From Bacteroidota bacterium (GTDB lineage: Bacteria; Bacteroidota; Rhodothermia; Rhodothermales; Bin80): a stretch of DNA of 64,000 nucleotides. Positions 541-43,999 of this stretch are shown piece by piece. The translations under genes were made by a program, and so were the position numbers. Every line of letters begins with the position of its first letter. The stretch's first letter is position 1. The notes beneath the pieces are model-generated. The model did no database searches. It saw only the letters and a program-made list of their open reading frames with translations, and was not told the origin of the DNA. Location: assembly GCA_026708685.1 (NCBI GenBank), contig JAPOUL010000113.1:1-64000 (forward strand), given 5' to 3'.

Positions 541-1791
541 TCACTTGATATCTTGAGTATTGGCAGAATAAATAGTTAATAATAATTCGGAATCATCAAT
601 GAGTTGATAGACTGGCCTGCTACCAGAGTGTTTTTCGCTTTCATTTAATATAATAGGTACGCCATCCCCGCGCTTTTCCATGTAGTAATTGCGGCCTATA
701 TTTTGAATAGATTCGGATATAGGTGTCTCAGAAAGCAGATTACTGATCAGTTCATTCCGGGTTGACTGACGCAGGTGCATATTTTCAATGTTGACAGAAT
801 TCGGAAGGGAACCAGGTGAATAAATCTCTAAGCGATCATCAAACATGAAAAATCTGATTTTTGAGCCATAAACTGAATAATCTCTGTGAGCCACAGCGTT
901 AACAATTGCCTCAAATACTGCCCGTTCATTAAACTGTGGCTTTTCAATGCGATGAGGCCTTTTTACTGCTCCGATAAATTGGTTTTTCAAGAGGAAAGTC
1001 ATTGCATCATTTATCTGGCGGTATAATGGCCCACGAATTCTGTGAGCATCAATTTGATAGTTGGAATCCTGCTTAATTCCTCTGTAACGGACGGCTTCAA
1101 TATATGCGTTGGGCAAGAATTGTTCCGGTTGTGGGCAGCAAAATAAGATGCCCGCAACAGAAGCTGACAGATCTTCATTTTCCTCTTTTGCCAAGAGTGA
1201 GCGTTTCTCAAGAACAACTTCTATGGATTCATCCGATATGGTGATGTACCTTTGCCAAAGTTCTTGGCTTAGATCAGCAATGTTTGACTCAGGAACGGGC
1301 TGCTCTTCAAATCGGAACAATCGTGCCTGACTACGTTGTTGAAACATTCTGGCCAGATATTCAGGTCTCATTTTTCGCACTGAGCTTCCTAATCGGTGAA
1401 AATATCCACCGGGGCTTTCATGAACAAATAGACTACGAGGAATATCGATCTTTATAATTATCCGTAATGTACCGGAACTGTCGGGAATTTCCATTCTGGA
1501 CAAGGTAAAAATTACTGGTGGGGCGATACTGTCATCGCAAATTTCATATATATAACGCTCTACATCATCCAAATGTACAAGGGGTATTCCAACTGTCTCC
1601 CGTGTAGTATCATCTACACCCAAAACTAGGGTACCTCCCTGAGAATTAGCAAGTGAAGCAATTTCATTGGCTAGTTTCTTACGAGATGGTCCATGAATTT
1701 TTCCTCCTTCAAACACAATAGTTTTGAATTCAATTGAACTATCCTCTCCTAATCTAATTCGGCGGAGCAGTTCTCTTCGATTATTCACCAT
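541..1791 (-). CDS. AlbA_2 (Schlafen-type) and HATPase domain protein
   Basis: About 416 residues from the ATG at 1791. An upstream in-frame start at 1845 exists, but it would overlap the TrlF-like gene by 65 bp, whereas 1791 gives an 11-bp overlap. The N-terminal 130 residues hold the AlbA_2 fold, with EFKTIVFEGG, a conserved SLANSQGGTLVLGVDD strand-turn segment and VYIYEI-like surroundings. The C-terminal half has the GHKL-type ATPase signature ERAVFEAIVNAVAHRDYSVY followed by DDRLEIYSPGSLP. Proteins of this layout are often labelled 'ATP-binding protein' or 'RecG-like transcriptional regulator'; the AlbA_2 part is a nucleic-acid binding or nuclease-like module. Translational coupling to the TrlF-like gene suggests the two work together, probably in defence. 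The exact activity is unknown. Confidence 0.85.
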   Translation of the reverse strand: MVNNRRELLRRIRLGEDSSIEFKTIVFEGGKIHGPSRKKLANEIASLANSQGGTLVLGVDDTTRETVGIPLVHLDDVERYIYEICDDSIAPPVIFTLSRMEIPDSSGTLRIIIKIDIPRSLFVHESPGGYFHRLGSSVRKMRPEYLARMFQQRSQARLFRFEEQPVPESNIADLSQELWQRYITISDESIEVVLEKRSLLAKEENEDLSASVAGILFCCPQPEQFLPNAYIEAVRYRGIKQDSNYQIDAHRIRGPLYRQINDAMTFLLKNQFIGAVKRPHRIEKPQFNERAVFEAIVNAVAHRDYSVYGSKIRFFMFDDRLEIYSPGSLPNSVNIENMHLRQSTRNELISNLLSETPISESIQNIGRNYYMEKRGDGVPIILNESEKHSGSRPVYQLIDDSELLLTIYSANTQDIK

Positions 1792-4552
1792 CAATTTTAC
1801 CGGTTGCAATTCTACGGAAACGATTTTCAAATGCTTTACGACCACCCTCCATTATCGTGCAGATATTTTCACGAACATTCTTCTCTTGAAGACAACCGAT
1901 AGAACCTATTTTTGATTCACCATGTATTGGAGTGAGTGATAGGACTAATTCAGAATCACCATTCACAACAATATTCGCATTATGAGTAACAATAATTAAC
2001 TGACGTTGACGTTTTTGGCTCCGCAACTGCATAACGATCAGATCATAGATAAGTAAATTATCTAAATCATCTTCGGGCTGATCAAGAATCAAAGGTTCAT
2101 CTCCATAAGAAAGTAGAAAAGCCAATAGCGCAGCTGTCTTCTGTCCGGGGGAACCCTCCTTGATTGAAAGGAAGCGTTCCTTCCTACCAGTTGCACAATA
2201 TTGAACATCAAGTGAATCTTCGGGAAACCAGGTATCTATACGATCAATCAATTCAGGGGGAAGTTTAGAAAGATGATTAGAAAATCTCTGATCTTTAACT
2301 GACACGTCATCTTTTTTAAATGCGATATTCCTGATATCTTTTTTCACATCCATTAGATTTCTCTCAATAGTTCTAGTAGAGGCTTCTTTATCTCGAAAAA
2401 TTTTACCAAGTAATCCTTCCCCATCTGGGGAACCTATATCTCTTTCAAAACCTGCCCCTTCCCTTTGAAGTAACTTACGAAACTCTATTTCAGCAGCATT
2501 CCGTGCTCCGTAAGGTACTACTTTTATACGAACGTATGGATTCCCATTCAATACTTCAGATAAAAATTGGGTACGATTCTGCGTCAGAGTTCTCCGAAGT
2601 GTAACCATCCTATCTAGTTGATCTTGTATCTGAATACTCAGTTCTTTAATCCGTTCCTTAAATACAAGAACATCTTCCAATTGATCTTCCTTCAATTGCC
2701 GATCTTGAAGTAATTGACCATAAATCAAAGGATTATTCTGTTCCTTTTTCGCAAGATAATCGTTTAATTCATGATAATTTTTCTCGGCGAGCCTCGCAGT
2801 ATTTTTCCAAGAGGAGGAAGAAATATCTTGATGCCACTGAGATAAAATCTGATCGGCTTTTGTAGCCATAGACTTAAGTTCGTTTGAGAAATTCTCAAAA
2901 GACATACATACCTTATTAGCATAGCCTTGTAATTCAGAATCAGACTCTGAACTGATAAGAAAGGTTTCATTTTGAAGAAAGTCTGGAACCATTTGATCAG
3001 CCAATTTACGTAATTTTTCGGGAACATTTTCCCAAGTTAACTCCCAATCTCTGATGCTACGTTTTTGACGAGTCAACTTTTGAAAATTCTTCAATATTTT
3101 AGAATATCCTGCACTATCAAAAACACTCAATTTTCTTTTGATATCTTCCAGTTCACCACGCAATCGAGATTCTTGAGATAGATGAGATTCTAATTCTCTG
3201 ACTTCAGAGCAGAGCGAAAAAAATTTATTCTCTTCTTGATTCCACTGCTCCATCCAGTTTCGATGATTTACTTGCGGAGCTTCATCAATGACTCTAAGCA
3301 AAGCAAGAGGTTTCTTTGCAAGATCAAATATCTGTTTTTGACTATATATTCGTACCGGAAACCTATGAGGGATATCCCCCTCAGAGGGATGCCATTTTTC
3401 TTCAGAAGTTTGTTGTTCAATGGGTGTAAGATTACCATTTGGACTCCACTGTATGCGAAACAGGGTATTATCCTTTCGATAGTAGACCCTAATAGTGGTT
3501 TCTTCCGTTAGGAGCCCTCCATCTTCTCTATTTTTGTATACCTCTCTATATTTAACCAATTCCTTACGAAAATCATTGGGTAATTCGTCTTCCCTCCTCA
3601 TAGCAGTACGTAGAAATTCAACAAGAGTAGATTTACCAGTTCCTCTTCCACCGATGATGGAGTTGAGCCAAGGGTTAAATCTGACATTAAATGTTTCGGA
3701 TCGTCCGAGATAACGAGCTTGGGAAACCTCCATAGATTCTAAGGTCATTTCCGCAAAAACATTTGGATTTTCAGTCTGACTATCAGATCGAATCACCGAA
3801 AAAGAATCGTCTAGCAAAGCCAAACGCAATCCTTCAATTGATGGAGTACCCATTTTAATCCAAGTAAAATGACTGCCAGGATATTTTGTATCAGAAACAT
3901 CCGATGGATGGTGACTGTCGGATCCAAGGACTTCGGTCCAACTAATTTTTTGATCTGTGTAACCTTGAGGTTTTACATAATTAGGATCAGTCAGCTCTAC
4001 AGCGAAAATACTTTTATTGTTTAATGCTTGTGTTAGTGAATTACCACTTAATTTAAATAATCCTTTTTGATTGTCAACATGTGCAGGAATAGGTATTCCC
4101 CCCGCTGAAACAATTTCACGAATCACATCAGTTAAGGACCGATTCGTGTCAGAATCACTTGTACCTTTTTCAGATTTATATCCTACGCTACCCAGTAAGG
4201 AATCAATGTCTGATTTAGTCTTGTCACGATCAAAAATAGCTAGTAAATGAATACCTCCATTAACAGAAATTTCAACCCCAGGAAACAAATATAAAGGCCT
4301 AAACCCCTGAGGATGGTTATTTTCCATTAAATGAAGCTCGTCCTTAACTTGGTCAATCCAAGCACCAGTATTGTGATCGGTAATAGCCACACAATCAATC
4401 TCCGCTTGCATATAATCAAGCAACCAGTCTCTGGGCGTAAGTTGCTTCAAGCGTTCATATTCAGGTCCTTTACCATAATCATTGGACGCAGGGGTGTGGG
4501 TGTGTAAGTCAAACTTCCACCAACGTGCACCACTCCATTGCCGATTACTCAT
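1781..4552 (-). CDS. TrlF-like PHP-AAA (SMC-type) ATPase
   Basis: A 923-residue protein. The N-terminal ~240 residues form a PHP metal-dependent hydrolase domain: FDLHTHTPAS near residue 15, CVAITDHNTG near 55, FPGVEISVNGGIHLLAIFD, IPAHVDNQKG and GSDSHHPSD supply the expected His/Asp/Glu ligands. A P-loop follows near residue 300 (IIGGRGTGKSTLVEF), then a long hydrophilic, coiled-coil-rich central part (about 430-700), and a C-terminal ABC/SMC Walker B region EPLILDQPEDDLDN with a LIIVTHNANI H-loop. This PHP-plus-split-ATPase order matches the TrlF family of AAA-like ATPases. The expected role is an ATP-gated nuclease or phosphoesterase in phage defence or nucleic-acid surveillance. First gene of a two- or three-gene minus-strand block. 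Confidence 0.88.
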   Translation of the reverse strand: MSNRQWSGARWWKFDLHTHTPASNDYGKGPEYERLKQLTPRDWLLDYMQAEIDCVAITDHNTGAWIDQVKDELHLMENNHPQGFRPLYLFPGVEISVNGGIHLLAIFDRDKTKSDIDSLLGSVGYKSEKGTSDSDTNRSLTDVIREIVSAGGIPIPAHVDNQKGLFKLSGNSLTQALNNKSIFAVELTDPNYVKPQGYTDQKISWTEVLGSDSHHPSDVSDTKYPGSHFTWIKMGTPSIEGLRLALLDDSFSVIRSDSQTENPNVFAEMTLESMEVSQARYLGRSETFNVRFNPWLNSIIGGRGTGKSTLVEFLRTAMRREDELPNDFRKELVKYREVYKNREDGGLLTEETTIRVYYRKDNTLFRIQWSPNGNLTPIEQQTSEEKWHPSEGDIPHRFPVRIYSQKQIFDLAKKPLALLRVIDEAPQVNHRNWMEQWNQEENKFFSLCSEVRELESHLSQESRLRGELEDIKRKLSVFDSAGYSKILKNFQKLTRQKRSIRDWELTWENVPEKLRKLADQMVPDFLQNETFLISSESDSELQGYANKVCMSFENFSNELKSMATKADQILSQWHQDISSSSWKNTARLAEKNYHELNDYLAKKEQNNPLIYGQLLQDRQLKEDQLEDVLVFKERIKELSIQIQDQLDRMVTLRRTLTQNRTQFLSEVLNGNPYVRIKVVPYGARNAAEIEFRKLLQREGAGFERDIGSPDGEGLLGKIFRDKEASTRTIERNLMDVKKDIRNIAFKKDDVSVKDQRFSNHLSKLPPELIDRIDTWFPEDSLDVQYCATGRKERFLSIKEGSPGQKTAALLAFLLSYGDEPLILDQPEDDLDNLLIYDLIVMQLRSQKRQRQLIIVTHNANIVVNGDSELVLSLTPIHGESKIGSIGCLQEKNVRENICTIMEGGRKAFENRFRRIATGKIDGE

Positions 4553-5065: not shown

Positions 5066-5566
5066 TTAATTGCCCTCAAAGGACACTTCTTTTCTTTCTA
5101 CAACCTTGGGTGCAACTACCACAGTTCCAGCAAGCTTGTCATGCCATCCTTGGTTTTTAGGATCAAATGCTATCCAAATGTACCCCAATCCAAGAGGAAG
5201 AGTGGATAAAACATAGCCGAAATATCGTCCAATATATTGACCAGTAGTGGGAGCCATCCCCGTTTTTGCATTAATAATCTTTGCATGGATTGCCATTTTC
5301 CCAGGTGTTGCTTGTTTTGCAACCCAAAACCAGATCGTAGCTACCGCAGGAAATACAAAAGACAAAAAGAAATCAAACGGTCCTTCTAACAAATCATCGT
5401 TAGTCCAGTAAGACTCTCCATAGTAGAACATAAGAATTGGAAGCGTGATGCAAAGAACGATAATGTAATCAATCAGCGACGCACCAAATCGTTTCCAAAA
5501 CCCTACATATATCAGATCGCTGGTAGTAGAATTGATGGAGTTTTCCATCGGATCAGAAGAATTCAT
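5066..5566 (-). CDS. RDD family membrane protein
   Basis: A 166-residue integral membrane protein. GFWKRFGASLIDYIIV (about 24-39) is the RDD-type start of the first membrane helix (R-F-x-A-S-x-x-D). A second helix lies near 64-84 (FFLSFVFPAVATIWFWV), followed by the typical ATPGKMAIHAKIIN loop, and a third near 110-130 (YVLSTLPLGLGYIWIAF), ending with GWHDKLAGTVVV. All are hallmarks of RDD proteins, whose biochemical role is mostly unknown. It is the last gene of the kinase/FHA/VWA cluster, 242 bp after the VWA gene, so membership is likely but less certain than for the tightly packed genes upstream. Confidence 0.85.
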   Translation of the reverse strand: MNSSDPMENSINSTTSDLIYVGFWKRFGASLIDYIIVLCITLPILMFYYGESYWTNDDLLEGPFDFFLSFVFPAVATIWFWVAKQATPGKMAIHAKIINAKTGMAPTTGQYIGRYFGYVLSTLPLGLGYIWIAFDPKNQGWHDKLAGTVVVAPKVVERKEVSFEGN

Positions 5567-5808
5567 TGAGTGTATTTATTTTTATGATGAGAAAAAAGGC
5601 CGGACTAAGTTGATCAATAACGCTGGAGCGGGAGAGAAAAACTTTGACCAGTCCATACGGATTGCATAGATCTTGGATTGACAAGAGGGTTTCAAGAGAT
5701 GGAAGTCTTTGTAATGAATCTCTTCAATTGGCTTGATCCGTTTCATACAGAATTTCTGGATCATCAAATTCCCAATCATGTCAAAGAAAATAGTGTCATT
5801 GCAATAAC

Positions 5809-6636
5809 TCATAAGATAGCCAGCAATAAACTGCTTAAGATGGACTCTCCACCTGCAGCATCCACAAAATTTCCTTGACCTGCCTCAGCGAGTTCTTTCA
5901 AAAACCGCAGTGCTTCTTGGTCATCATCGGCAAAACCCCTGATCTGAGCTCGCACAGTTGAGACATGTTGATCTTCTACGGAGGAAAAACTTGTAGCGGC
6001 CGTGATGGCAGCTGTTTCTCTGTCTGGGTATGCCGCATTATCGGTAATCACGATAATGAATCTAGTCTCACTTTCTGATCGCCAGGACAATGTGGTCGCA
6101 TGTTCTAATGCTGTGGTAACCGCCTCGGGTCCATCACTGTTCAAATTTGAATCAGGATCGTTCATCCCAGGAGTCAGGTCATCAACGAAACTCTGAATCG
6201 TCGTCATATTGGTTGTTTCGGTAATATCCAGATCATAGATCGGCTGTCGATACCGACGATCACCAAAAGCAACAATTCCAATACCTACGGAAGGGGAAAT
6301 TTTATCTAACACTTCCGACAGTGCTGAAATCTCAGCTTTGAGTCCATCAATCTGGCCATACATGCTTCCCGTAATATCCAGGCAAATCACGATATCCAGA
6401 GTTGGGATCCTGAATGTTGCTTGACTGAGGGTCATGACCAAATCTTCCAAGTCCTCAGACCTTGATTGAGCGGATTCAAGCTCGGCTTGCATGTTTTCTC
6501 TTTGGGATGACGTTTCTGTATTCGGGAAAAACGGCATTACAGTCACTGCAAGCAAAACAAACGCCCCCATTCCAGACGCAAATAGATCCAATGCGGACAT
6601 AGAAAATACATTAAGTTCTCTGCGCTGATGCTTCAT
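5809..6636 (-). CDS. VWA domain protein with MotB/ExbD-like N-terminal helix
   Basis: A 275-residue protein. After a short basic N-terminus there is one membrane helix (about 14-36, SALDLFASGMGAFVLLAV) with an Asp at residue 17. This resembles the single helix of MotB/TolR/ExbD/ZorB-type stators, where such an Asp carries ions. A coiled linker (about 43-75) leads into a von Willebrand A domain with MIDAS-like elements: IVICLDITGSMYG (a D-x-T-G-S variant), DGPEAVTTALEHA and IVITDNAAYPDRE. The domain should be periplasmic. The gene start overlaps the stop of the membrane FHA gene by 4 bp, indicating coupled translation. The VWA call is firm; the stator-like reading of the helix is inference, supported by the MotA/TolQ-type gene four genes upstream in the same run. 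Confidence 0.85.
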   Translation of the reverse strand: MKHQRRELNVFSMSALDLFASGMGAFVLLAVTVMPFFPNTETSSQRENMQAELESAQSRSEDLEDLVMTLSQATFRIPTLDIVICLDITGSMYGQIDGLKAEISALSEVLDKISPSVGIGIVAFGDRRYRQPIYDLDITETTNMTTIQSFVDDLTPGMNDPDSNLNSDGPEAVTTALEHATTLSWRSESETRFIIVITDNAAYPDRETAAITAATSFSSVEDQHVSTVRAQIRGFADDDQEALRFLKELAEAGQGNFVDAAGGESILSSLLLAIL

Positions 6637-8057
6637 CCCAAGATCTTAATGGACAACGTTACATCTCCTAAAACGATCATTGATCCCTGAGATAGGGAAT
6701 ACGTTTTACCCGGAACGAGTTTCTCCCCATTGAGCATAATTCCATTCAAACTATTGAGATCTTCAATCATGAGCGTGCTCCCAGTTAAAGTGATTCTTGC
6801 ATGCTGTCTGGATACGCTTCCTTCGGCAATGACACAATCAGAGTGGGCGGAGGAGCGTCCGATGATAACTCCCTCATCGTTCTGAGCAAGAACATCACCC
6901 TTGATTTTTAGCCGAATTTCGCTACCATTGGGTCCATGACCATGTAGAAGTATATCCGAAAACGTTGCAGATTTTTGCTCAATAACACCTTCGGCCTTAC
7001 GTAGCTCATCATCTTTATCCAAGAGTTCTTCTTCTGCGGCTTGCTTTCGTCTCCAGAATAGAAATAAAAAGAAAACAGCTAGCAAAATCAAAAGGAAGGA
7101 AATTCCTCCAATCAAGAATATTTGCCTGCGATTATTTTCTTCTTGGGCAGACAATTGACGACGGGCCAAGCTATCTAAAAGCACCAGACTATCACGTTGA
7201 GATTGAAGTTGTTCACTTTCAATGAGAACGGAATCTTGAATGGCCAACATGGAGTCAGCTTCAGCAATCTGTGTTGCAAGAGAATCTTTCTGTCGCCCGA
7301 TAATTTCAAGCTGTTCAGCCGTCTGATTGATAGCTGCTGTACTGGAATCCTCTAACTCGGTCAGTTGACTTTTTAGAGAATCAAGATCTTGTTGAAGTGA
7401 AGTACTCAGAGACTCAGCTTGAGAGAGTTGCGTAGCCACAGTAGGGCAGGGGGTGGGAGCAGTCGCTAAAGAGATGCCATTTAACTGGAGGAATGATGTC
7501 AACAATGAATAGCTCTCGCTAAATCCAGTCAAATTCCCCATTGAATCTAATTCACCTGAAATGACAGAAATCAATTGGTCACATCGATTCAAAAGTGGAG
7601 AACCAATCATGTATGAGTCCACATCTATCGAAAAACGATAGATCAGCGAAGTCGGTGAAAGGTATTGATGACTCAATAGAACGTTAACATGATCGCTATC
7701 TATTGAAGGGAAGTGTGCATGGGAATTAGATTGAGGGGGTTCATGAGAAAGCGTAGGAGCATTGGAGGAAGGTAATCCTTGGGCAAACAGAAGAACCAAG
7801 GATTCCGAGGATGACTGAATCTCTGCCAAATAGCGAGCACCTGTTTCTGGATTCTCAATGAAAAATTGATCTCCCCAATGTAGAATGGATTCCGAGGTCA
7901 ATAACCGGTTTTCAGCAACCCAGATTCCCATTGCCTGTGCGGTTTCCTCGCCTTCATAGTAAATGATTACCTTATAGATCGTGCTTTCAGCACTTGGGGA
8001 TATCAGTCCCATTGCTAGAAAGCAGATCAAAAAACAAAATGAGATGCGTTGAAGCAT
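6633..8057 (-). CDS. Membrane FHA protein with periplasmic protease-like and coiled-coil parts
   Basis: A 474-residue protein. A signal peptide (1-25) is followed by a ~180-residue region whose spacing recalls a trypsin-like fold (GIWVAENRLLTSESILHW near 43-60, IGSPLLNRCDQLISVIS near 150), but no clear His-Asp-Ser triad can be seen. A coiled coil follows (about 212-305), then one membrane helix (about 312-335, FLIGGISFLLILLAVFFLFL) with a basic stop, then a second short helix-rich stretch and a C-terminal FHA domain (about 395-472: VIIGRSSAHSDCV, GSVSRQHARI, DLNSLNGIMLNGEKL). The predicted layout is a periplasmic sensor with a cytoplasmic phosphothreonine reader. It lies 12 bp after the PP2C gene. 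The kinases of the same cluster are the natural source of its ligand. Confidence 0.85.
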   Translation of the reverse strand: MLQRISFCFLICFLAMGLISPSAESTIYKVIIYYEGEETAQAMGIWVAENRLLTSESILHWGDQFFIENPETGARYLAEIQSSSESLVLLFAQGLPSSNAPTLSHEPPQSNSHAHFPSIDSDHVNVLLSHQYLSPTSLIYRFSIDVDSYMIGSPLLNRCDQLISVISGELDSMGNLTGFSESYSLLTSFLQLNGISLATAPTPCPTVATQLSQAESLSTSLQQDLDSLKSQLTELEDSSTAAINQTAEQLEIIGRQKDSLATQIAEADSMLAIQDSVLIESEQLQSQRDSLVLLDSLARRQLSAQEENNRRQIFLIGGISFLLILLAVFFLFLFWRRKQAAEEELLDKDDELRKAEGVIEQKSATFSDILLHGHGPNGSEIRLKIKGDVLAQNDEGVIIGRSSAHSDCVIAEGSVSRQHARITLTGSTLMIEDLNSLNGIMLNGEKLVPGKTYSLSQGSMIVLGDVTLSIKILG

Positions 8058-8069
8058 AAGAGCGATTAT

Positions 8070-8816
8070 TTATCGATAACGGTAAACGATTAAGGAAGCA
8101 TTATCCTGTCTTGGACGATTCATTGCAACAACTGATTCTAATAGGACTTCTACAATGTCATGAGGAGAAGGGCGACCTGCCGTTACAATTTGGAGGATTT
8201 CATCGTTTGAGCATGTTTCAATGCCATCACTTGCGCAAATAAGCACATCTCCTGGATGTAATACAATAGGATCAGTTGGAGCATCAACATAATCAATCTC
8301 TGCACCTAATACTGCTGACACGAGATGATTACGTTTATCAGAATTTTTGGCAGCTTCCCAAGAAATTTCACCAGCTTGTGCACGCTTATCAAGGATGGCT
8401 CCTATGGAATGATTTTCATTGAGTTGGGCAATACTCCGTCCCCGAATCAACCAGAGTGGGCTATCTCCAACACTGATCCAGTAGAATTGATGTCCAATGA
8501 CAACTGCTCCAATGATCGTTGTCCCACCCAGAGTTGATATTGTTTGATGCTCTTTTTTCTCCATGTAAAGAGCATCGTTTACGGCTTGAAGAGAATTGAT
8601 GAGTCGATCTCTGATACTGGATGTAGATTGATCAGAAGTAAATGTATTCTTGAACTCTCTGACAGCGATATCAGAAGCTATTTTCCCGCCTTTGGCTCCA
8701 CCAATACCATCGGCTAAGATCATCAAGTAGTGGTTTTGTTTCCATTCAAGGTAGGAGAATGCGTCTTGTTGATATTCTCGTGCGCCTTGAATCTGACCAC
8801 CAGCAATTGAATCCAT
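8070..8816 (-). CDS. PP2C-type Ser/Thr protein phosphatase
   Basis: About 248 residues from the ATG at 8816, 11 bp after the FHA gene. A start at 8864 would overlap that gene by 38 bp and add residues not typical of the family. Metal-binding PP2C motifs are present: QGAREYQQDAF, MILADGIGGAKGGKIASDIA, STLGGTTIIGAVV, ICASDGIETCSNDEI and the terminal RPRQDNASLIVYRY. It should remove phosphate from Ser/Thr residues and so oppose the two kinases encoded upstream in the same run. It is soluble and cytoplasmic by prediction. Sitting between two FHA genes is typical of bacterial Hanks-type kinase signalling loci. Confidence 0.93.
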   Translation of the reverse strand: MDSIAGGQIQGAREYQQDAFSYLEWKQNHYLMILADGIGGAKGGKIASDIAVREFKNTFTSDQSTSSIRDRLINSLQAVNDALYMEKKEHQTISTLGGTTIIGAVVIGHQFYWISVGDSPLWLIRGRSIAQLNENHSIGAILDKRAQAGEISWEAAKNSDKRNHLVSAVLGAEIDYVDAPTDPIVLHPGDVLICASDGIETCSNDEILQIVTAGRPSPHDIVEVLLESVVAMNRPRQDNASLIVYRYR

Positions 8817-8826
8817 GTGGAGTCGC

Positions 8827-9459
8827 TTAATCAGACCATGTAAACTGTTCGTCGCAGAATGCAATAAAGCGCAACGTAGTGGAACCAGTCACAATTTTAC
8901 TTCCAGAACTCAGTGGGGTAGGGGACAACACTGGTTCACCTTCAAGATAGGTTAGATTCGTTCCCATACCGGGCTGGATGTAATATTTATTGTGCTTAGG
9001 GTCATAGGTAATGATCGTTTGAGAGTCTCGGGAAATTTCATCATCTCCAAAGTCTATACGCACCCGTGCCTGCATTCCACGTCCCACAGTATTCTGCCCA
9101 GATCCAAGTTGACATGATACCCCTTTTCCAGGACCATCAATGATTACCAACCATCCTACAACGGGATCAGATGGAAGATTTGAACTGATATTGGGGGTTT
9201 TTAACGATTCATGAGCTTTAGAAGATGGTCCAGATCGAATGATGACTTTTGTCAACGGTTCACCAGTAGAAGGCTCTAAGCCTGACCCTGCATTCGGAGG
9301 CATATTTCCCTGGGCGATCCGAGTTGGTGGATCATCAGGAATCCTTAGAGACTCGTCATCCTGTCCAAGATTTAGATCACGAAATAAATCACTCCCTTTG
9401 TCGGGAATGATGGTAGGAACGTCTTCGGGAAGCCCGTCCTTGTTCAGTTTTTTTGCCAT
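8827..9459 (-). CDS. Soluble FHA domain protein
   Basis: A 210-residue cytoplasmic protein. The first ~100 residues are polar and disordered-looking, with several Thr/Ser next to acidic or Pro residues (DVPTIIPDKG, PPTRIAQGN), which are candidate phosphosites. The C-terminal part, from VGWLVIIDGPGKGVSCQL, is an FHA domain: NTVGRGMQARVRIDFGDD, EISRDSQTIITYD, and a degenerate loop where the usual S-x-N-G-x-x-V stands (GTNLTYLEGEPV). FHA proteins with a long N-terminal tail commonly act as kinase-regulated adaptors. It lies 11 bp downstream of the MotA/TolQ-type gene and 11 bp upstream of the phosphatase. Confidence 0.85.
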   Translation of the reverse strand: MAKKLNKDGLPEDVPTIIPDKGSDLFRDLNLGQDDESLRIPDDPPTRIAQGNMPPNAGSGLEPSTGEPLTKVIIRSGPSSKAHESLKTPNISSNLPSDPVVGWLVIIDGPGKGVSCQLGSGQNTVGRGMQARVRIDFGDDEISRDSQTIITYDPKHNKYYIQPGMGTNLTYLEGEPVLSPTPLSSGSKIVTGSTTLRFIAFCDEQFTWSD

Positions 9460-9470
9460 TTGAATGAAGT

Positions 9471-10286
9471 TTATTCTTCGTATAAACGATTGATGAGATG
9501 ATCTAAAACATACTGTCCAATCCCGTTGAGACCGGATTCCTCACGTCCCTGAGCAATATGTTGTAAGAAGACTAAAATTGCAGCCATCACCAAAGCTAGG
9601 AATGTTGTATTGAACGCGAGACCAAGTTTCGTTGTCATGGCTCCAAACCACATCTTGATCGCCTCAGAATCTTCTAAACTCGGCATGTCATTGGCTGCTG
9701 ACAGAGCAAGTGCAATCCCAATGACCGTTCCAATAAATCCAAGGGTAGGAATGAGCCAAACCACATAGCGGAGCATATTATACTTCAGATCAATCTCATG
9801 TTGCATAAGTTCCAAACTTGAATTGACCAGGCTACTTGCTTGATTCGCCGATTGGCTGATTTGGAATTGCTGAATGGCTCGTAGAATGAGCCGTTGGAGT
9901 CGGTGATCCTGACGGCGTTTAGACTCTTTGATTTTCCGAAAAATCGGGATAAGATCTTTGGAGCGTAGGATACTCGTATCATCATCTGGAAGGATTCGCA
10001 TTTTCAGCTGTTTTAGTTCCAGATTGGCACGATTAAAGCGCAGGATGACTTCTGCAATTCCAACCGAAAACATGAACCACATCAGATTTTGAATGGTGAA
10101 GGGATAGCGAACACTACCACGATCAAACAGAATATCCGAGAGATAAATTCGGTTGGTCCCTGTTTGCGGTATCGGCAACAATAATGAAAAGATCGTAATC
10201 AGAACCGATGCGATCGCAAGGGCAATAAGAACCCCTATCACTCGACTATTTGATTCCTTCAGATCTAAAAGATTAACAGAACTCAT
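9471..10286 (-). CDS. MotA/TolQ/ExbB-type proton channel protein
   Basis: A 271-residue membrane protein. Predicted helices lie at about 16-38, 61-81, 170-194 and 222-241. The third carries VVWLIPTLGFIGTVIGIALA and the fourth GLAFNTTFLALVMAAILVFL, the two pore-lining segments that define the MotA/TolQ/ExbB family. A basic, helical cytoplasmic segment (about 83-165) separates the two pairs. Members form pentameric channels around a dimeric MotB/ExbD-type partner and turn ion flow into motion. No separate tolR/exbD/motB gene is present in this window; the likely partner is the single-helix VWA protein encoded nearby. It begins the tight five-gene run ending at the VWA gene. Confidence 0.88.
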   Translation of the reverse strand: MSSVNLLDLKESNSRVIGVLIALAIASVLITIFSLLLPIPQTGTNRIYLSDILFDRGSVRYPFTIQNLMWFMFSVGIAEVILRFNRANLELKQLKMRILPDDDTSILRSKDLIPIFRKIKESKRRQDHRLQRLILRAIQQFQISQSANQASSLVNSSLELMQHEIDLKYNMLRYVVWLIPTLGFIGTVIGIALALSAANDMPSLEDSEAIKMWFGAMTTKLGLAFNTTFLALVMAAILVFLQHIAQGREESGLNGIGQYVLDHLINRLYEE

Positions 10287-10340
10287 TGGTTGAAGTTATC
10301 ATCACAATTAATGAACTTAAAAAGAGACGACCAAGGTTTG

Positions 10341-12236
10341 CTATGGAGATAGATGATTTATGAATATAAATAACGAAGCATTAATCGACAGAAATATGAT
10401 AATCATGATAATCACGATATTAAATTTAACCCGTTGAAATGTGGTAACAATTAGCCAAAGCCCCCACCAGAACACCATAAATACCGCAAGGGCATATGGA
10501 AACAAAAAACTAAGGAAATCACTATTAAAACCTGGGGTATAAGACAATAATAATAATAATGATCCAATAGCCAACCCAGATCCCAAAAATAATCTTAGTA
10601 ATCTTAATAATATACCTTTATAATCGAACCGTGTAACTCCCGAGCGAAAAACAAATTCTAATCTTTTTCTTGCATTTTTATGGCCCCGATCTGAAGCCAT
10701 TTTGAGCCATTCAGCAGCTTTGGAGTTGTTTTTAGTTACTCCAGTTCCGTTGAAATAACAAATGCCAAGCTCAAACTGGGAATCTGCATGCCCTTGTTCC
10801 GCGGCCTTGCGATACCATTTAACGGCTTGCCGTTTTTTGGAATGATTGCCAAGAAAATATTGTGAATCAATATGTCCATGAATTGCAGCTATTTGGACGC
10901 ATCTGAAACCCTCCCGATCGTTTCTTAATGTCCCTTGTCCCTTAAAATATCTCTGAGCAAGAGAAAATAATGCGTCAAGGTGACCATCATCAGCCGCTAA
11001 CTTTAACCATTTAACAGCTTCTTGTTCATCCTTGTTTATTCCAGCACCATCCAAAAATCTATTACCTATCTCATACTGTGCTTCAACATGTCCAAGATTT
11101 GCAGCTTGCAAGAATAAATTTGATGCTATTTCATCATTTTTTTCTACCCCTTGGCCATGAGCATATTTTACGCCAAGGTCATAAATGTAACTAGATGCAC
11201 TAAAAGATTCTGTTTCAATTAATTTAATTTGATCGATTTGGCGATACAGTGATTCAGTATCAGATGATTGAACATGATAATTTTCTTGTTGATCGGAAGA
11301 CGTTTTTTCTTTCAGTGGAGGATTTAACTCTTGCGAAAATCTAGGACGAATTTCATTCAAAAGTTCATTACAATTTTGAATTCGGTTTCGGAGATTGACA
11401 ACCAAACAATCATCAATGGATTGAAGAATCTCTTCATTGAATCGGCTGTGTCCAACAAGTTTTGCTGATGGGAGTGGATCTTCTCGACCATACATCAATT
11501 CAAATGCTCTTTTTTGGCTGGTTACTGGAATAGGTGGGGAAAACGGAGGGTTTCCACCAGCAACCATTCTCCACATTAGGGCTCCGACACCGTAGATATC
11601 CGTCCATGGGCCAATATCTCCTTCTCCGACTTGTTCTAATGCGGCATATCCATCTGAGTATGGGGCAAAAGACTTTGTATGTCTATTGATCTCATGCTTC
11701 GCAGCTCCAAAATCAATGAGAACAGGTACACTATCGGCTCGGCGAATTATGATATTTGAGGGTTTAATATCACGATGGCATACACCGGCATCATGAACTA
11801 GTTGTAATCCATTTAAGACTGGGAGAACGACCTGTAGCATATCATTTTCTGTAAATGGGTTTCCTTGTTTCTCTCTTTGTTCTAAAAGTATTGACAGAGG
11901 AACTCCATGAATGTAATCCATCACAATGTATGCAGTACCATTTGTATTGAATAAGTCTCTACAAGTCACAATATTTGGACACTCCCGAAAATTTTCAAGT
12001 TGTCTTGCTTCTTTGATGAAGCGGTCCAGGCTCTCTTGAAATGATTCCCGAAATTCTTCTTTACTTGGTTGGACAATACCATTTTGACGAATACACAATT
12101 CTACTGGGAAGAACTCCTTGAGTGCGACATCAATCCCAAGAGATGGATGCTTAGCTTTATAGATAATCCCAAAACCTCCAGTTCCGAGAACAGAGAGGAT
12201 TTCATACCCATGAATAATGGTGTGAGGTGCGAGCAT
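10341..12236 (-). CDS. Ser/Thr protein kinase with Sel1 repeats and C-terminal membrane helices
   Basis: A 631-residue protein. Residues about 12-300 form a Hanks-type kinase: glycine loop GTGGFGIIYKAKH, Lys in VALKEFF, catalytic loop VCHRDIKPSN, metal-binding DFGAAKHE, and a TDIYGVGALMW segment. About five Sel1-like repeats follow (roughly 350-540; AQYEIGNRFLDGAGINKDEQ, DSQFELGICYFNGTG), then three hydrophobic helices (about 550-630), so kinase and repeats appear to be on the same, cytoplasmic side. The kinase half is closely similar to the neighbouring kinase gene, pointing to a tandem duplication, but the arrangement of membrane and repeat parts differs. It lies 54 bp upstream of the MotA/TolQ-type gene on the same strand. 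Confidence 0.92.
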   Translation of the reverse strand: MLAPHTIIHGYEILSVLGTGGFGIIYKAKHPSLGIDVALKEFFPVELCIRQNGIVQPSKEEFRESFQESLDRFIKEARQLENFRECPNIVTCRDLFNTNGTAYIVMDYIHGVPLSILLEQREKQGNPFTENDMLQVVLPVLNGLQLVHDAGVCHRDIKPSNIIIRRADSVPVLIDFGAAKHEINRHTKSFAPYSDGYAALEQVGEGDIGPWTDIYGVGALMWRMVAGGNPPFSPPIPVTSQKRAFELMYGREDPLPSAKLVGHSRFNEEILQSIDDCLVVNLRNRIQNCNELLNEIRPRFSQELNPPLKEKTSSDQQENYHVQSSDTESLYRQIDQIKLIETESFSASSYIYDLGVKYAHGQGVEKNDEIASNLFLQAANLGHVEAQYEIGNRFLDGAGINKDEQEAVKWLKLAADDGHLDALFSLAQRYFKGQGTLRNDREGFRCVQIAAIHGHIDSQYFLGNHSKKRQAVKWYRKAAEQGHADSQFELGICYFNGTGVTKNNSKAAEWLKMASDRGHKNARKRLEFVFRSGVTRFDYKGILLRLLRLFLGSGLAIGSLLLLLSYTPGFNSDFLSFLFPYALAVFMVFWWGLWLIVTTFQRVKFNIVIIMIIIFLSINASLFIFINHLSP

Positions 12237-12400
12237 GACTGCTAAATCACATTAAGATTAGTCACTAAAACAACACCACATTCAACGGTTTCATTTCAAG
12301 ACTGGTTGCATGATTATTTTCAAAATGATCTTGATGAACTGGCAAATAGGATCAATTACAATGTCCTGATTGAATCTGTGCAGTCCAATCGTGTAGCGAA

Positions 12401-14749
12401 TTATTGTGGGCATTCAGCAATGATTTGAGCTGAATACCGCTCCGCTTGACGGAGAGCATATCCAGTTAACTGGGGGCGGACAGTAGAATTCAATCTCTCA
12501 AAGTCTTCATCCTCTGGCATGAATACCAAGCCAGAATGAAGCCAAGCATACGCCAAGACATAATTTTCTGAGTTTGAATAGTATTCTGCAAGAAATTTCA
12601 TGGCATCCACATGGCACTGATTCGCGGCAAGGCGAAACCACCTGAGTGCCTGACGATAGTTTTCTGGAACCCCGTAACCATAGGAGTACATGATACCTAT
12701 ACTAAATTGAGCATCCGCATGACCTTGCTCAGCTGCGAGCTGATACCACTCCAAGGCCTCACCATTATCTTCTTGGACTCCATGACCATAAAAATACATT
12801 TCTCCAATCTGATATTGTGCATCTGCAAATCCTTGATCAGCAGCAAGTTTGTACCACTTCATGGCTTCAAGCTTGTCTTCCTGAACCCCAAAGCCATAGT
12901 AATACATGTCCCCCAAACGATACTGTGCAGGGAAAAGCTCCTGATCGGCTGCCAATCTGTACCATTTCAGTGCCTCAAGATTGTCTTCTTGAACCCCCTG
13001 ACCATAGTAATACATATCTCCAACACTATACTGTGCGGTGGGAAGTCCTTGATCGGCGGCGAGCCGAAACCATTTGAGTGCCTCGCTATGGTCTTCAGCA
13101 ACCCCATAGCCATAATAATGCATGACCCCAATACTGAACTGGGCAGCGGCATGATCTTGCTGGGCCGCAAGTCCGTACCATTCCATGGCTTCGGAGTAAT
13201 CTTCTTCAACCCCGTGGCCATAGTAGTACATATCTCCAATATTGTATTGTGCCTCTGCAAGATCTTGTTCAGCTGCTAGACTGAACCATCTGAAGGCCTC
13301 AAGATTGTCTTCCTCTACACCATTGCCCATATAGTACATGGTTCCAAGTGAATATTGTGCCATTGCAAGCCCCTGAATTGCAGCCTCACGGTACCATCTT
13401 ACCGCTTCTTCATCGTCTTCAACGACTCCCTGTCCGAGGTCATATATAAACCCAAGACTCAGCTGTGCTTCTGCATGTCCTTGATGAGCAGCACGATCGT
13501 ACCATTTGACTGCTTCTGTAAGATCTTCTGGCATTCCGAATAAACCATTGTCATAGGCAAGACCAAGCTTGAATTGAGCATCCGCATCCCCACTTTGAGC
13601 ATCCGCCATGATGTTTTCAATACTCTCACCTTCATTCATCCTGAACAATGCAAATATTGTGAGTAGCAAGAGGATGATACCACAGGTTAATCCCCAAACT
13701 AAAGGTTTTCGTGATTTTCGTGATGTGTGATTAGAAGATCTTTTGAAATCATTTTGCTCCGACGTATCTACAATGGTTTCTTGATTTGTGATTGCAGAGG
13801 TAGGCTTAGATGAATGACTCTGAGGGAATGAATTTCCAGTCACTGAATCAAGCCTTTCCATGAGTTCTTTGCAGCTTTGAATACGATTTTTAACATTGAT
13901 GATCAGCGAATCATCTATGGCTTGCAGTATTTGATGTGAAAACCGCTCAGCACCGATTACTGTTGATGATGGCAAAGGATCTTCTCGCCCATGCATCAGA
14001 TCAAATGCTCTTTTTTGCGAGTTCATGGGAATTGGTGGATCAAATGGAGGATTCCCCCCAGCCACAATCCGCCACATCAGTGCACCTATACCATAGATAT
14101 CTGTCCAAGGGCCAATGTCTCCCTCTCCAACTTGCTCTATCGCTGCGTACCCATCTGAGTAGGGTGCAAATGATTTTGTATGTTGGGAAATTTCATGTTT
14201 CGCAGCACCAAAATCAATTAATACGGGCACACTGTCATCGCGGCGTATAATTATATTGGATGGCTTAATATCTCGATGGCATACCCCCGATTCATGTACA
14301 ACTTGAAGCCCTCTTAATACTGGGAGTATGACCTGAAGAAGCTCACTTTCGTTCAATGGTTTTCCACGCTTTTCTCTCTGCTCAAGAAGTACGGATAAAG
14401 GAACTCCAAGAACATATTCCATCACAATGTAGGCTGTACCATTCGCCATAAAGAGGTCCCTGCAGGTGACGATATTCGGACAATTGTGAAAGTTTTCCAA
14501 CTGCCTCGCCTCCTTGACGAATCGATCCAGTCCCTCGTTGTAGGATTCCTGAAACTCTAATTTGCTCGGCTTTACAAGTCCATTTTGACGAATACATATT
14601 TGAGATGGAAAATACTCCTTGATAGCCACATCAATTCCTAGTTCTTGATGTCTGCCTTTGTATACGATTCCAAACCCTCCTTGGCCAATCACCGAGGAGA
14701 TTTCATACCCATTGAGATGTATTCCTACTGGAAGCATGTTATGACTCAA
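12401..14749 (-). CDS. Ser/Thr protein kinase with one membrane helix and a Sel1-repeat ectodomain
   Basis: A 782-residue protein. The N-terminal kinase (about 12-300) has GQGGFGIVYKGRH, VAIKEYFPS, VCHRDIKPSN, DFGAAKHE and TDIYGIGALMW. A Ser/Thr-rich linker is followed by one membrane helix (about 347-367, GLTCGIILLLLTIFALF) and then nine regular 36-residue Sel1 repeats (AQ[FY]xxG...GxGVxED...A..W[YF]xLAA) and a degenerate tenth. By orientation the repeats should be periplasmic, suiting a receptor or scaffold, whereas in the paralogue they come before the membrane helices. It is the first gene of the cluster, 164 bp before the second kinase. The strong identity of the kinase halves suggests duplication of the whole gene with later rearrangement of the C-terminus. 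Confidence 0.93.
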   Translation of the reverse strand: MSHNMLPVGIHLNGYEISSVIGQGGFGIVYKGRHQELGIDVAIKEYFPSQICIRQNGLVKPSKLEFQESYNEGLDRFVKEARQLENFHNCPNIVTCRDLFMANGTAYIVMEYVLGVPLSVLLEQREKRGKPLNESELLQVILPVLRGLQVVHESGVCHRDIKPSNIIIRRDDSVPVLIDFGAAKHEISQHTKSFAPYSDGYAAIEQVGEGDIGPWTDIYGIGALMWRIVAGGNPPFDPPIPMNSQKRAFDLMHGREDPLPSSTVIGAERFSHQILQAIDDSLIINVKNRIQSCKELMERLDSVTGNSFPQSHSSKPTSAITNQETIVDTSEQNDFKRSSNHTSRKSRKPLVWGLTCGIILLLLTIFALFRMNEGESIENIMADAQSGDADAQFKLGLAYDNGLFGMPEDLTEAVKWYDRAAHQGHAEAQLSLGFIYDLGQGVVEDDEEAVRWYREAAIQGLAMAQYSLGTMYYMGNGVEEDNLEAFRWFSLAAEQDLAEAQYNIGDMYYYGHGVEEDYSEAMEWYGLAAQQDHAAAQFSIGVMHYYGYGVAEDHSEALKWFRLAADQGLPTAQYSVGDMYYYGQGVQEDNLEALKWYRLAADQELFPAQYRLGDMYYYGFGVQEDKLEAMKWYKLAADQGFADAQYQIGEMYFYGHGVQEDNGEALEWYQLAAEQGHADAQFSIGIMYSYGYGVPENYRQALRWFRLAANQCHVDAMKFLAEYYSNSENYVLAYAWLHSGLVFMPEDEDFERLNSTVRPQLTGYALRQAERYSAQIIAECPQ
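12620..13600 (-). repeat. 108-bp tandem coding repeat (Sel1 units)
   Basis: Nine successive 108-bp units encode the Sel1 repeats of the second kinase. Several adjacent units are nearly the same at DNA level (recurring segments coding for MYYYGxGVxED and LAADQ), which suggests recent unit duplication. The out-of-frame open stretches on the other strand are by-products of the repeat. Confidence 0.85.
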
Positions 14750-16548: not shown

Positions 16549-17436
16549 TCAGGCCTTATTTTCTTGATTAATACGGTAAGCCATACTTGCGAGTACATAT
16601 GATTGATTCTCAATTACTGCTCTGCTCGCACCATCTGCGTTGGGAAATAAGCGGGCGGCATTGATGCCAAAGAGGCTACAAAGTTTATAGAGTTTGAAAC
16701 ATTCAGAAATGGGCATTGTCAGTTTGAGAATTGATTGATCTGAGGGTAGATACTCTTCAAGACTTTTAATGAACACAGGTTCATCTACTTTTTCAAGGAG
16801 TGGATGGACGGTAAAAACTCCATGTTGAGCAACTACATTTTTTGAAACAGAACCACTAACCTTAAGAACTCTAACTTCGCCCCGAAAAGTATTCTTAGAG
16901 GTTCCCTTATCAAAAGCAAATATAGCTATTTCTTGATCACCTTTCCAATCAGGCTCAGATAGTGCATGACTCATGGCAAAATAAGCTGCTATAAACGGAT
17001 TGGTGGTCCAATCAAGAAGTCGGGTAGGGATCCCATGAAGTTGTGCCATTGCCATAGCATCAATTAATTCTTCATGTGGCCATTCATCAAGGTTGGGTAG
17101 ATACTTTTGAAAGTTATGATCAAACAAATTTCTTTCTCGGAATCCGACAGAATCATTGGGAATTATACTCCCGGCTTCGTCACAGAAGTAGATAAAATCC
17201 CTTAACATTGAAAATTCTGCCCAAACTAAATCTTGAGAAAGCAATTTATCAGAGATTAAATGCTTGAACACTTCAATCGACTGAGGGCGTAAAAGTGTAG
17301 GAATTAAATCCCATTGAGCATTGCCTTGCCCTCTATAAATTACTTCGGTATCATCAAAGTTAGTGCTTTGGTGTAATGCACTTAATTCAGCCCATATGGA
17401 ATCTGCAGTCTCCAACTTTCTATTTTTGATCATCAT
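16549..17436 (-). CDS. FRG domain protein
   Basis: A 295-residue protein. The FRG signature is clear: VIYRGQGNAQWDLIPTLLR near residue 33 and the partner block LHGIPTRLLDWTTNPFIAAYFA near 140. The FRG domain takes its name from the F/Y-R-G motif and is frequent in accessory regions and defence-linked loci; its chemistry is not settled. The gene follows a small gene by 27 bp on the same strand, so the two probably form an operon. The start at 17436 gives MMIKNRKLE; the second Met is equally possible. Confidence 0.85.
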   Translation of the reverse strand: MMIKNRKLETADSIWAELSALHQSTNFDDTEVIYRGQGNAQWDLIPTLLRPQSIEVFKHLISDKLLSQDLVWAEFSMLRDFIYFCDEAGSIIPNDSVGFRERNLFDHNFQKYLPNLDEWPHEELIDAMAMAQLHGIPTRLLDWTTNPFIAAYFAMSHALSEPDWKGDQEIAIFAFDKGTSKNTFRGEVRVLKVSGSVSKNVVAQHGVFTVHPLLEKVDEPVFIKSLEEYLPSDQSILKLTMPISECFKLYKLCSLFGINAARLFPNADGASRAVIENQSYVLASMAYRINQENKA

Positions 17437-19659: not shown

Positions 19660-20928
19660 TTAATAACTGAGAGGTTTTGGGTTACTTTCCCATAACATTC
19701 GTATTGGAACCATGTACATACCGTTTCCGAAGCTAGCACAGACCTCTCCGTCATAAAGCACAGCACCGTATGTGAACTGATCAGGGCATGTAGACTTGAG
19801 TTTACGTAAACCTTTAAAGTCAGAATTTACGATAGAAGCCCCTGCCTTAACTTCAATTCCTGCAATTTCGAAAGCACCGCGTTCAATGACTAAGTCTACT
19901 TCGACTTGATCCCTATCACGGAAATGAAAGAATGAATACTGTTGATCGGAAAAACTTGCCTGTTTTTTCAGTTCTTGAAACACAAAGGTTTCAAGCAGAT
20001 GTCCAAGAAGAGTGCGTTGTTCGTTTAAGTCATTGGCATTCAAGCCAAGTAGTGCACAAGCAATCCCAGTATCACCAAAATGAATCTTTGGTGTTTTGAT
20101 TAACCTATTGAGTCGATTGGTATACCAAGCTGGTAGGCGTTCAATCAGGAACTGGTACTCCAATAGTGTCAAATAATCCTGAGTTGTATTGCGATTCATT
20201 TGTAGACTGGATCCGATATCAGAAATGTTTAAAAGTTGCCCAGTTAGATGGGCAACCGATTGGAGCAATTTGGGCAATACTTCAATTGAGCGAATTTTAG
20301 ATAGATCTAGAATATCCTTTGAAATAATATTCTCAACATAATTTTTAAGCCAGTTGGAGCGTTTACGGTCAGATGATAGGTTGAGTACTTGAGGATAACC
20401 ACCTAAAACGATGCGTTGAGCAAGGTTTGTAGAAAGAGCTTCAGCTGAACATGTTGGAAAATCACCGGAAAATAACCGCTCTATAAATGACTTTGATTGA
20501 CTCTGTTCAATTTCCTGTTGAGAAAATGGATGTAAGCGAAGTGTTTCCATGCGACCAACCAGTGCGTCGGCCAAATCTGGCATCATTAAAACATTTGAAG
20601 AACCAGTAAGCAAGAACATTCCTGCTTTGCGGTTACGATCATCAGCTATTTTAAGGTTTCGGCTCAATTGTGGGACTCTTTGAATCTCATCAAGTATTGT
20701 CCGCTCAGAGCAATTTCGGAGGAACAAGTTAGGATCATTCTGGGCAGATATTCGCACCTCATCAGAGTCAAAAGTGAAGTAGGTATACCCAAGATCTTCC
20801 CCTATCTCTTTACACAGGGTAGTTTTTCCGCACTGTCTTGGTCCATGAAGGAGGGTAACGGGCGAAGACTCTAACGATTCAATAAGTAACGACTTGAGAT
20901 GTCGAGGGACAAATTTACCAGATCTCAT
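19660..20928 (-). CDS. AAA ATPase with DUF4143 domain
   Basis: A 422-residue protein. P-loop LLHGPRQCGKTTLCKEI near residue 25, Walker B RTILDEIQRVPQL near 80, sensor region MFLLTGSSNVLMM, and a C-terminal DUF4143 domain (about 200-370) including NRNTTQDYLTLLEYQFLIE and FHFRDRDQVEVDLVIERG, the last a PD-(D/E)xK-like strand pattern with IAGIEVKAG. This matches the widespread 'ATP-binding protein, DUF4143' family, common in accessory regions of unknown purpose. Monocistronic here. Confidence 0.92.
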   Translation of the reverse strand: MRSGKFVPRHLKSLLIESLESSPVTLLHGPRQCGKTTLCKEIGEDLGYTYFTFDSDEVRISAQNDPNLFLRNCSERTILDEIQRVPQLSRNLKIADDRNRKAGMFLLTGSSNVLMMPDLADALVGRMETLRLHPFSQQEIEQSQSKSFIERLFSGDFPTCSAEALSTNLAQRIVLGGYPQVLNLSSDRKRSNWLKNYVENIISKDILDLSKIRSIEVLPKLLQSVAHLTGQLLNISDIGSSLQMNRNTTQDYLTLLEYQFLIERLPAWYTNRLNRLIKTPKIHFGDTGIACALLGLNANDLNEQRTLLGHLLETFVFQELKKQASFSDQQYSFFHFRDRDQVEVDLVIERGAFEIAGIEVKAGASIVNSDFKGLRKLKSTCPDQFTYGAVLYDGEVCASFGNGMYMVPIRMLWESNPKPLSY

Positions 20929-25845: not shown

Positions 25846-25852
25846 AGCACTA

Positions 25853-43010: not shown

Positions 43011-43034
43011 TTTACTTGCAGATAATTGTATAAA

Positions 43035-43996: not shown

Positions 43997-43999
43997 ACC

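Follow-up and report, generated by a model that had tools for sequence, protein, structure and literature searches.

Does a set of kinase, phosphatase and phospho-reader genes next to a MotA/TolQ/ExbB-type channel gene belong to the channel, or does it merely lie beside it? The question is raised by a minus-strand locus in contig JAPOUL010000113.1 of a Rhodothermales bacterium (Bacteroidota; assembly GCA_026708685.1), whose first 64,000 nucleotides (hereafter the window) were analysed here. Flagella, outer-membrane transport, division and phage defence all draw their power from ion-driven 5:2 motors, and to our knowledge it is understood in only a few cases how cells switch these motors. A first-pass annotation made from the sequence alone had proposed a phosphorylation-controlled, ion-driven envelope complex of eight genes (5066–14749). 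We checked these eight open reading frames (ORFs), calling domains with Pfam above the family cut-offs, and searched the channel protein against 84,980 species genomes. Seven of the eight genes are one system, and sequence comparison argues for a real, widely spread and coherent one: a predicted ion-driven motor of the VWA type that comes with a phosphorylation switch of its own and with sensors of protease fold. We assign a probability of roughly 0.55 to a phosphorylation-gated, ion-driven inner-membrane motor in which a periplasmic VWA domain is the moving arm.

Gene content and recurrence of the locus

All eight co-oriented ORFs are present, and every domain that had been claimed was recovered with Pfam across the eight proteins. 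The genes, and the features within them that are discussed below, are as follows (aa, amino acids; TM, transmembrane; AF2, AlphaFold 2).

12401–14749, minus strand: STK1, a Hanks-type Ser/Thr kinase (Pfam Pkinase 4.8e-36, Sel1 6.2e-89)
10341–12236, minus strand: STK2, a Hanks-type Ser/Thr kinase with Sel1 repeats (Pfam Pkinase 8.9e-36)
9471–10286, minus strand: channel/stator ring protein of the MotA/TolQ/ExbB family, 271 aa (Pfam MotA_ExbB PF01618, 7.3e-11)
8827–9459, minus strand: soluble FHA protein with a disordered N-terminal tail and a C-terminal FHA domain (Pfam FHA 1.8e-6), kept in all core loci
9250–9324, minus strand: candidate phospho-switch tail of the soluble FHA protein, with Thr46 (PPT) and Thr70 (EPxT) (11-locus alignment)
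8070–8864 (likely true start 8816), minus strand: PP2C-type Ser/Thr phosphatase (PP2C_2 1e-12; NCBIfam Stp1-like 1.2e-37)
6633–8057, minus strand: membrane FHA protein with a signal peptide, trypsin-like domain, coiled coil, TM helix (~313–331) and FHA domain (Pfam FHA 2.6e-17)
7482–7979, minus strand: degenerate trypsin-like (DegS/HtrA fold) domain of that protein, predicted periplasmic, with the triad His and Ser lost (alignment, profile, AF2/Foldseek)
5809–6636, minus strand: VWA protein with an N-terminal putative pore helix, coiled coil and VWA domain (Pfam VWA_2 8.7e-9; alignment)
6526–6621, minus strand: TolR/ExbD-like putative pore helix of the VWA protein, RELNVFSMSALDLFASGMGAFVLL (alignment; compared with E. 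coli TolR, ExbD and MotB)
5066–5566, minus strand: RDD-family membrane protein (Pfam RDD 6.6e-26), a neighbour 242 bp downstream, judged to lie outside the system

The tight packing reported from the channel gene to the VWA gene is also there, with gaps of 11, ~10, 12 and −4 bp. These were computed with the PP2C start at the ATG at 8816, where the homologues begin; the longest PP2C ORF opens at a TTG at 8864 and overlaps the preceding gene by 38 bp. A 222-aa plus-strand ORF (12611–13279) is antisense to the Sel1 repeats and was taken as an artefact.

What argues most strongly for a single system of signalling and channel genes is their co-occurrence. The host genome (3.83 Mb, 99.6% complete) has its sole PP2C_2 match and its sole FHA match over cut-off at this locus. 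Among 16 genomes of the host family, channel, PP2C and FHA are all found in the same six (G000, G002, G004, G005, G012 and G014) and are all absent from the other 10; in a second family of the order, G060 has all three and its five relatives have none. If the genes were independent, perfect co-presence over these 22 genomes would have a probability of 1/C(22,7)=5.9e-6, a statistic that ignores phylogeny. From this shared presence and absence it follows that the phosphatase and the phospho-readers exist in this lineage only with the motor.

The channel search retrieved matches from Rhodothermales metagenome-assembled genomes (MAGs), one genome labelled Bryobacterales, SAR86, other Gammaproteobacteria and Pseudomonas sp. 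WN033. Wherever the flanks are complete (11 loci including the window, 24–95% identity), a five-gene core is present in the same order and on the same strand: channel, soluble FHA protein, PP2C, membrane FHA protein and VWA protein. The last two genes overlap by 4 bp in six of the 10 other loci. Pairwise-identity matrices of the five core proteins correlate with r of 0.92–0.97 (none of 2000 permutations was as high), and the five genes therefore travel as a unit. The grouping of these genes is far beyond chance. Linkage across genomes, on which the first-pass annotation had staked its proposal, is thus borne out: the channel, FHA, PP2C, FHA and VWA genes remain linked in bacteria that are only distantly related, and almost all of these loci have kinases close by. 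The RDD gene, which had been listed as a component, has no counterpart in the other core loci; it was ruled out as a member, and the extent of the system is therefore taken as ~5809–14749.

Rearranged variants keep the component set, e.g. two loci with the order reversed (L051 and L052) and the Rhizobium leguminosarum conjugative plasmid pRlBT01d (L053), which carries the channel, VWA, FHA proteins, PP2C and kinases in a rearranged order. In the channel tree the core loci, the variants L085–L089 and the Rhizobium plasmid copy form one clade (support 98/97); the deeper branches are long and unsure. Strong matches to this system (class A, as distinct from the class B described below) were found in six of 369 sampled gammaproteobacterial genomes. 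Several of the assemblies are MAGs, so binning errors are possible, and the Bryobacterales label of L030 may be a misbin.

The predicted motor and its proposed phosphorylation control

The channel protein scores 42.4 bits against PF01618 (cut-off 22.9). Its helices IPTLGFIGTV and AFNTT are invariant across loci, and P180, T181, T187, N226, T227 and T228 are invariant in 12 sequences, as in conserved pore-lining Thr/Pro helices. A PDB profile search with the channel gave a 13-bit MotA match and nothing better, so a structure comparison was needed; the AF2 model matches the TolQ, ZorA (8vvn) and ExbB structures with a Foldseek probability of 1.00.

The stator-like helix that the first-pass annotation had seen in the VWA protein stands up to comparison: the N-terminus resembles the TolR/ExbD pore helix, is near-invariant (conserved beyond the VWA domain itself), and carries an aspartate, Asp17, that is invariant in 11 sequences. 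It was aligned by eye with TolR (EINIVPLLDVLL), and its layout, set side by side, matches those of E. coli TolR (EINIVPLLDVLLVLLLIF) and ExbD. Topology suggests a periplasmic VWA domain, as had been proposed, and the metal-site motif of this domain (DITGS; metal-ion-dependent adhesion site, MIDAS) is intact. No relatives of the VWA protein were found in phages. Neither the ORF list nor Pfam revealed an ExbD/TolR-like ORF at the locus, leaving the VWA protein as the only pore-helix candidate; at the three other MotA_ExbB loci of the host genome, in contrast, inspection by eye showed short ExbD/TolR-like ORFs nearby, and FHA, PP2C and VWA are all lacking. This difference makes a channel pentamer with two VWA helices in its pore likely.

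On the control side, Thr46 and Thr70 in the tail of the soluble FHA protein are invariant over the 11 aligned loci and are candidate phospho-sites by analogy with GarA/OdhI. The metal-binding Asp motifs of PP2C are present (QQD, ADGIGG, GDS, SDG and QDN). For the membrane-spanning FHA protein, the TM helix and the FHA domain were confirmed, but the first-pass annotation had missed a trypsin-like fold, which topology places in the periplasm, with the FHA domain in the cytoplasm. Residues R401, S416, R417, H419 and N438 of this FHA domain are invariant. The trypsin-like domain matches Rv3671c, HtrA1 and DegS (best Foldseek E 4e-9 with the AF2 model, others weaker; profile E ~1e-3). An active protease is ruled out in the window, as LLTSESI and GSPLLN stand in place of the His and GNSGGP motifs and the triad is lost. 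Sister loci (L089, L085, L087, L051 and L052) encode FHA-TM-trypsin proteins with intact protease motifs; L051 and L052 have the inverse layout, with FHA at the N-terminus and trypsin at the C-terminus, and two layouts of this combination have therefore been retained or assembled.

Both kinases have intact kinase motifs (GxGGFG, VAIKEYF, HRDIKP and DFG in STK1). Hydropathy gives STK1 a single TM helix (~350–368), followed by nine Sel1 repeats that are presumably periplasmic, and gives STK2 three C-terminal TM helices. Kinase genes lie upstream of the core in Rhodothermales, downstream in most Gammaproteobacteria and divergently in Pseudomonas, and their domain tails also differ between loci. 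A profile search of the host genome found four Hanks-type kinases, two of them STK1 and STK2; the other two, which complete the Pkinase set of the genome, are close paralogues of STK1 and STK2 in an unlinked position (G000:C17:736-4306, L124).

In the proposed mechanism the channel protein would form a pentamer, as expected from its family, and its pore would take up the N-terminal helices of two VWA protein copies, where Asp17 would carry the ions. The VWA domains would reach into the periplasm or to the outer membrane and bind a ligand through the metal site. The kinases, one of which would sense through what appear to be periplasmic Sel1 repeats, would phosphorylate threonines, possibly Thr46 and Thr70 of the soluble FHA protein. 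Docking of the FHA domains would follow and would start or stop the motor; one of these domains belongs to the membrane FHA protein, in which the periplasmic pseudo-protease would sense the envelope. PP2C would reset the switch. The gene set and order, co-occurrence, topology signals, intact motifs and pore-helix aspartate can be read directly from the sequence; we infer the 5:2 assembly, ion flow, gating, substrates and pulling step.

Several points weigh against this mechanism. The AF2 model of the channel is of moderate quality (pLDDT, the predicted local distance difference test, of 81), and its best PDB E-value with Foldseek is 5e-3. Around its phospho-site the soluble FHA domain is degenerate, reading SRxxH in place of SRxH. 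In G060 (L111) the genes run channel, FHA, PP2C, FHA and then kinase, with no VWA gene on the 6.2-kb contig. The co-presence statistic, as stated above, takes no account of phylogeny, and we know of no experimental link between FHA or PP2C and any motor of this type.

We hold it at a little short of even odds that the locus represents an unnamed machine class: a 5:2 motor, driven by protons, that has a periplasmic VWA domain on its rotor, a dedicated eukaryotic-like Ser/Thr switch (kinase, PP2C and two FHA proteins) that gates it, and a membrane-crossing protease-fold sensor that feeds into this switch. If so, we know of no earlier ExbB/TolQ-type motor that is phospho-gated and brings its own signalling genes. 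Because the motor is packaged with a complete, dedicated switch, whose phosphatase and phospho-readers are exclusive to it in the host family, control by Ser/Thr phosphorylation is directly testable. Bacterial FHA/PP2C pairs, whose targets are usually unknown, would gain a clear home, and a transmembrane protease-fold sensor would be tied to a mechanical output.

Known systems and rival explanations

The first-pass annotation knew of no named system of this composition, which appears to hold for the control genes but is too strong for the motor. A 2025 study (Mol Biol Evol, msaf138; PMC12204202) predicted, with AlphaFold 3, 5:2 motors in which the pore helices of a related class of VWA proteins pair with TolQ-like pentamers, so the motor half is not new here. 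These TPH-vWA motors share with the present locus a TolQ-like channel, the lack of a tolR/exbD gene, and a VWA protein with a TolR/ExbD-like pore helix and a conserved Asp. Their VWA genes, however, are 'predominantly' heterologous pairs, as in class B (L092, L093, L099 and L100), whereas all core loci here have one VWA gene, together with PP2C, two FHA proteins and kinases; a pair is thus not essential to the TPH-vWA class. The main text of that paper does not contain 'kinase', nor 'FHA' except in FhaC. No paper describing this gene set was found in the literature searched (text search; preprints and most subscription journals lay outside its scope), where the dedicated kinase/PP2C/FHA/protease control module appears undescribed.

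The Ton (ExbBD) and Tol (TolQR) systems share the channel fold and the Asp-bearing helix; here, however, the VWA domain replaces the periplasmic domain of TolR/ExbD, no TonB/TolA is seen, and control would be by Ser/Thr phosphorylation. A kinase, PP2C and FHA set that switches an envelope machine is known from the threonine phosphorylation pathway (PpkA/PppA/Fha) of the type VI secretion system (T6SS), and such a set is shared with the present locus. The membrane FHA protein was ruled out as part of that pathway, scoring 37.5 bits against TagH (TIGR03354) where the cut-off is 120.25; no T6SS genes were recognised in the locus, the rest of the genome not having been searched. The NCBIfam/Pfam matches of the VWA protein include no TerY-type family; Ter genes were not searched directly.

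The most serious rival is a Zorya-like anti-phage machine, in which an ion-driven motor would sense envelope damage at phage entry and phospho-signalling would trigger the response. Zorya has a MotA/ExbB-type ring and a single-helix partner, and the AF2 model of the channel resembles its ZorA. The distribution is patchy and accessory (four of 10 genomes of the genus), and the surrounding region, variable within the genus, also holds candidate defence genes, Ppl and Gabija among them: in the window the neighbours of the locus are Ppl, an intact Gabija pair and PDC-M55 (coordinates below), and the nearest relative (L025) adjoins Ppl and a DRT1a reverse transcriptase. Cyanobacterial plasmid channels that are ~30% identical also sit among defence genes. 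PADLOC, run on the eight proteins, gave weak matches of the channel to ZorA (E 0.005) and of the pore helix to ZorB (E 0.018), at 12–14 bits, and none of the eight matches ZorC/ZorD or ZorE effector genes; Zorya membership proper is ruled out on profiles and gene content, the phospho-module standing in place of ZorC/ZorD-type genes and an OmpA-like domain. A defence role is further disfavoured by the lack of an effector nuclease or helicase in the locus and of a peptidoglycan-binding domain, and by the gammaproteobacterial loci, which lie among apparent housekeeping genes (by eye; L031 and L033 share flanking oxidoreductase genes, and an ftsK-like gene lies upstream in L085). Ppl is 58% identical between the two closest relatives, against 95% for the channel, and therefore has not moved together with the system; on this ground, and because it lies on the opposite side of the locus in the closest relatives, Ppl was rejected as a partner gene. 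We consider a Zorya-like machine unlikely. Our preference is for a general role in the envelope, probably its upkeep or attachment to surfaces, and defence is the chief competing reading.

Less likely still is a regulated secretion, adhesion or surface-motility device, with the VWA domain engaging and moving outer-membrane or extracellular partners as in the Agl-Glt machinery of Myxococcus. By composition, Agl-Glt (PMC3169522) is the nearest experimentally studied analogue, joining a TolQ-type channel (AglR) with an inner-membrane FHA/TonB protein (GltG). The intact MIDAS motif would fit such a role, and PMC12204202 cites CglB, an adhesin with a VWA domain. However, the ExbD/TolR subunits of Agl-Glt are separate, and none is found at this locus; its FHA domain is fused to TonB in GltG, no PP2C is seen in the passages of PMC3169522 examined, and our loci showed no conserved gene for an outer-membrane barrel, a TonB-like protein or an adhesin. 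As to whether kinase, PP2C and FHA form a signalling cassette that merely adjoins the motor and is co-transferred without joint function, the kinase genes would allow it, varying in position and domain tails and having two unlinked paralogues in the same genome. The FHA and PP2C genes, in contrast, sit between channel and VWA in a tight operon, with 4-bp overlaps in many loci, are gained and lost with the channel, and persist in the rearranged variants. This explanation is already disfavoured, and we regard it as very improbable.

Neighbouring genes and related loci

The window also encodes the following candidate defence genes.

541–1845 and 1781–4552, minus strand: DNA-binding-like gene (541–1845) adjacent to a Ppl/TrlF anti-phage-type ATPase (1781–4552) (profile searches)
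23929–27739, minus strand: intact Gabija pair, GajA (628 aa) and GajB (638 aa) (PADLOC E <1e-180)
41352–45250, minus strand: PDC-M55 A/B/C, a three-gene candidate defence set

An FRG-like PDC-S15 (16549–17436) and a PDC-S01 (19660–20928) were also observed in the window. The pair of Ppl and the DNA-binding-like gene is found beside the system in L025/L109 as well, on the other side and with the DRT1a reverse transcriptase gene between.

Class B, seen in Gammaproteobacteria (L092, L093, L097, L099, L100, L102 and L104), has the channel with a heterologous pair of pore-helix proteins and is probably the published Idiomarina type (PMC12204202); one locus of this class, L096, adds an FHA protein and a TPR kinase. 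In these loci, L096 included, the pore-helix pair carries FSLSFLDIMSCGLGA and there is a 420–460-aa protein, which is FHA-bearing in L096; lipoproteins, PEGA/FGE-sulfatase and TPR-kinase proteins are found there too. Class B coexists with the class-A system in two genomes (G450 and G451). Possible Zorya relatives are two cyanobacterial plasmid loci (L054:8911-11490 and L055:8911-11511) in which the genes for a 466–470-aa channel protein and for two small proteins with a pore helix adjoin either type III CRISPR/viperin genes or a methylase/helicase set.

Gammaproteobacterial loci have an extra TM-FHA thermolysin protein and a second PP2C. Such thermolysin (M4)-TM-FHA proteins, with HExxH intact, were observed in six loci (L031:5344-9442, L033, L034, L035, L030 and L036), paired or fused with a PP2C that bears a thermolysin propeptide motif, an unusual fusion of phospho-reader and metalloprotease.

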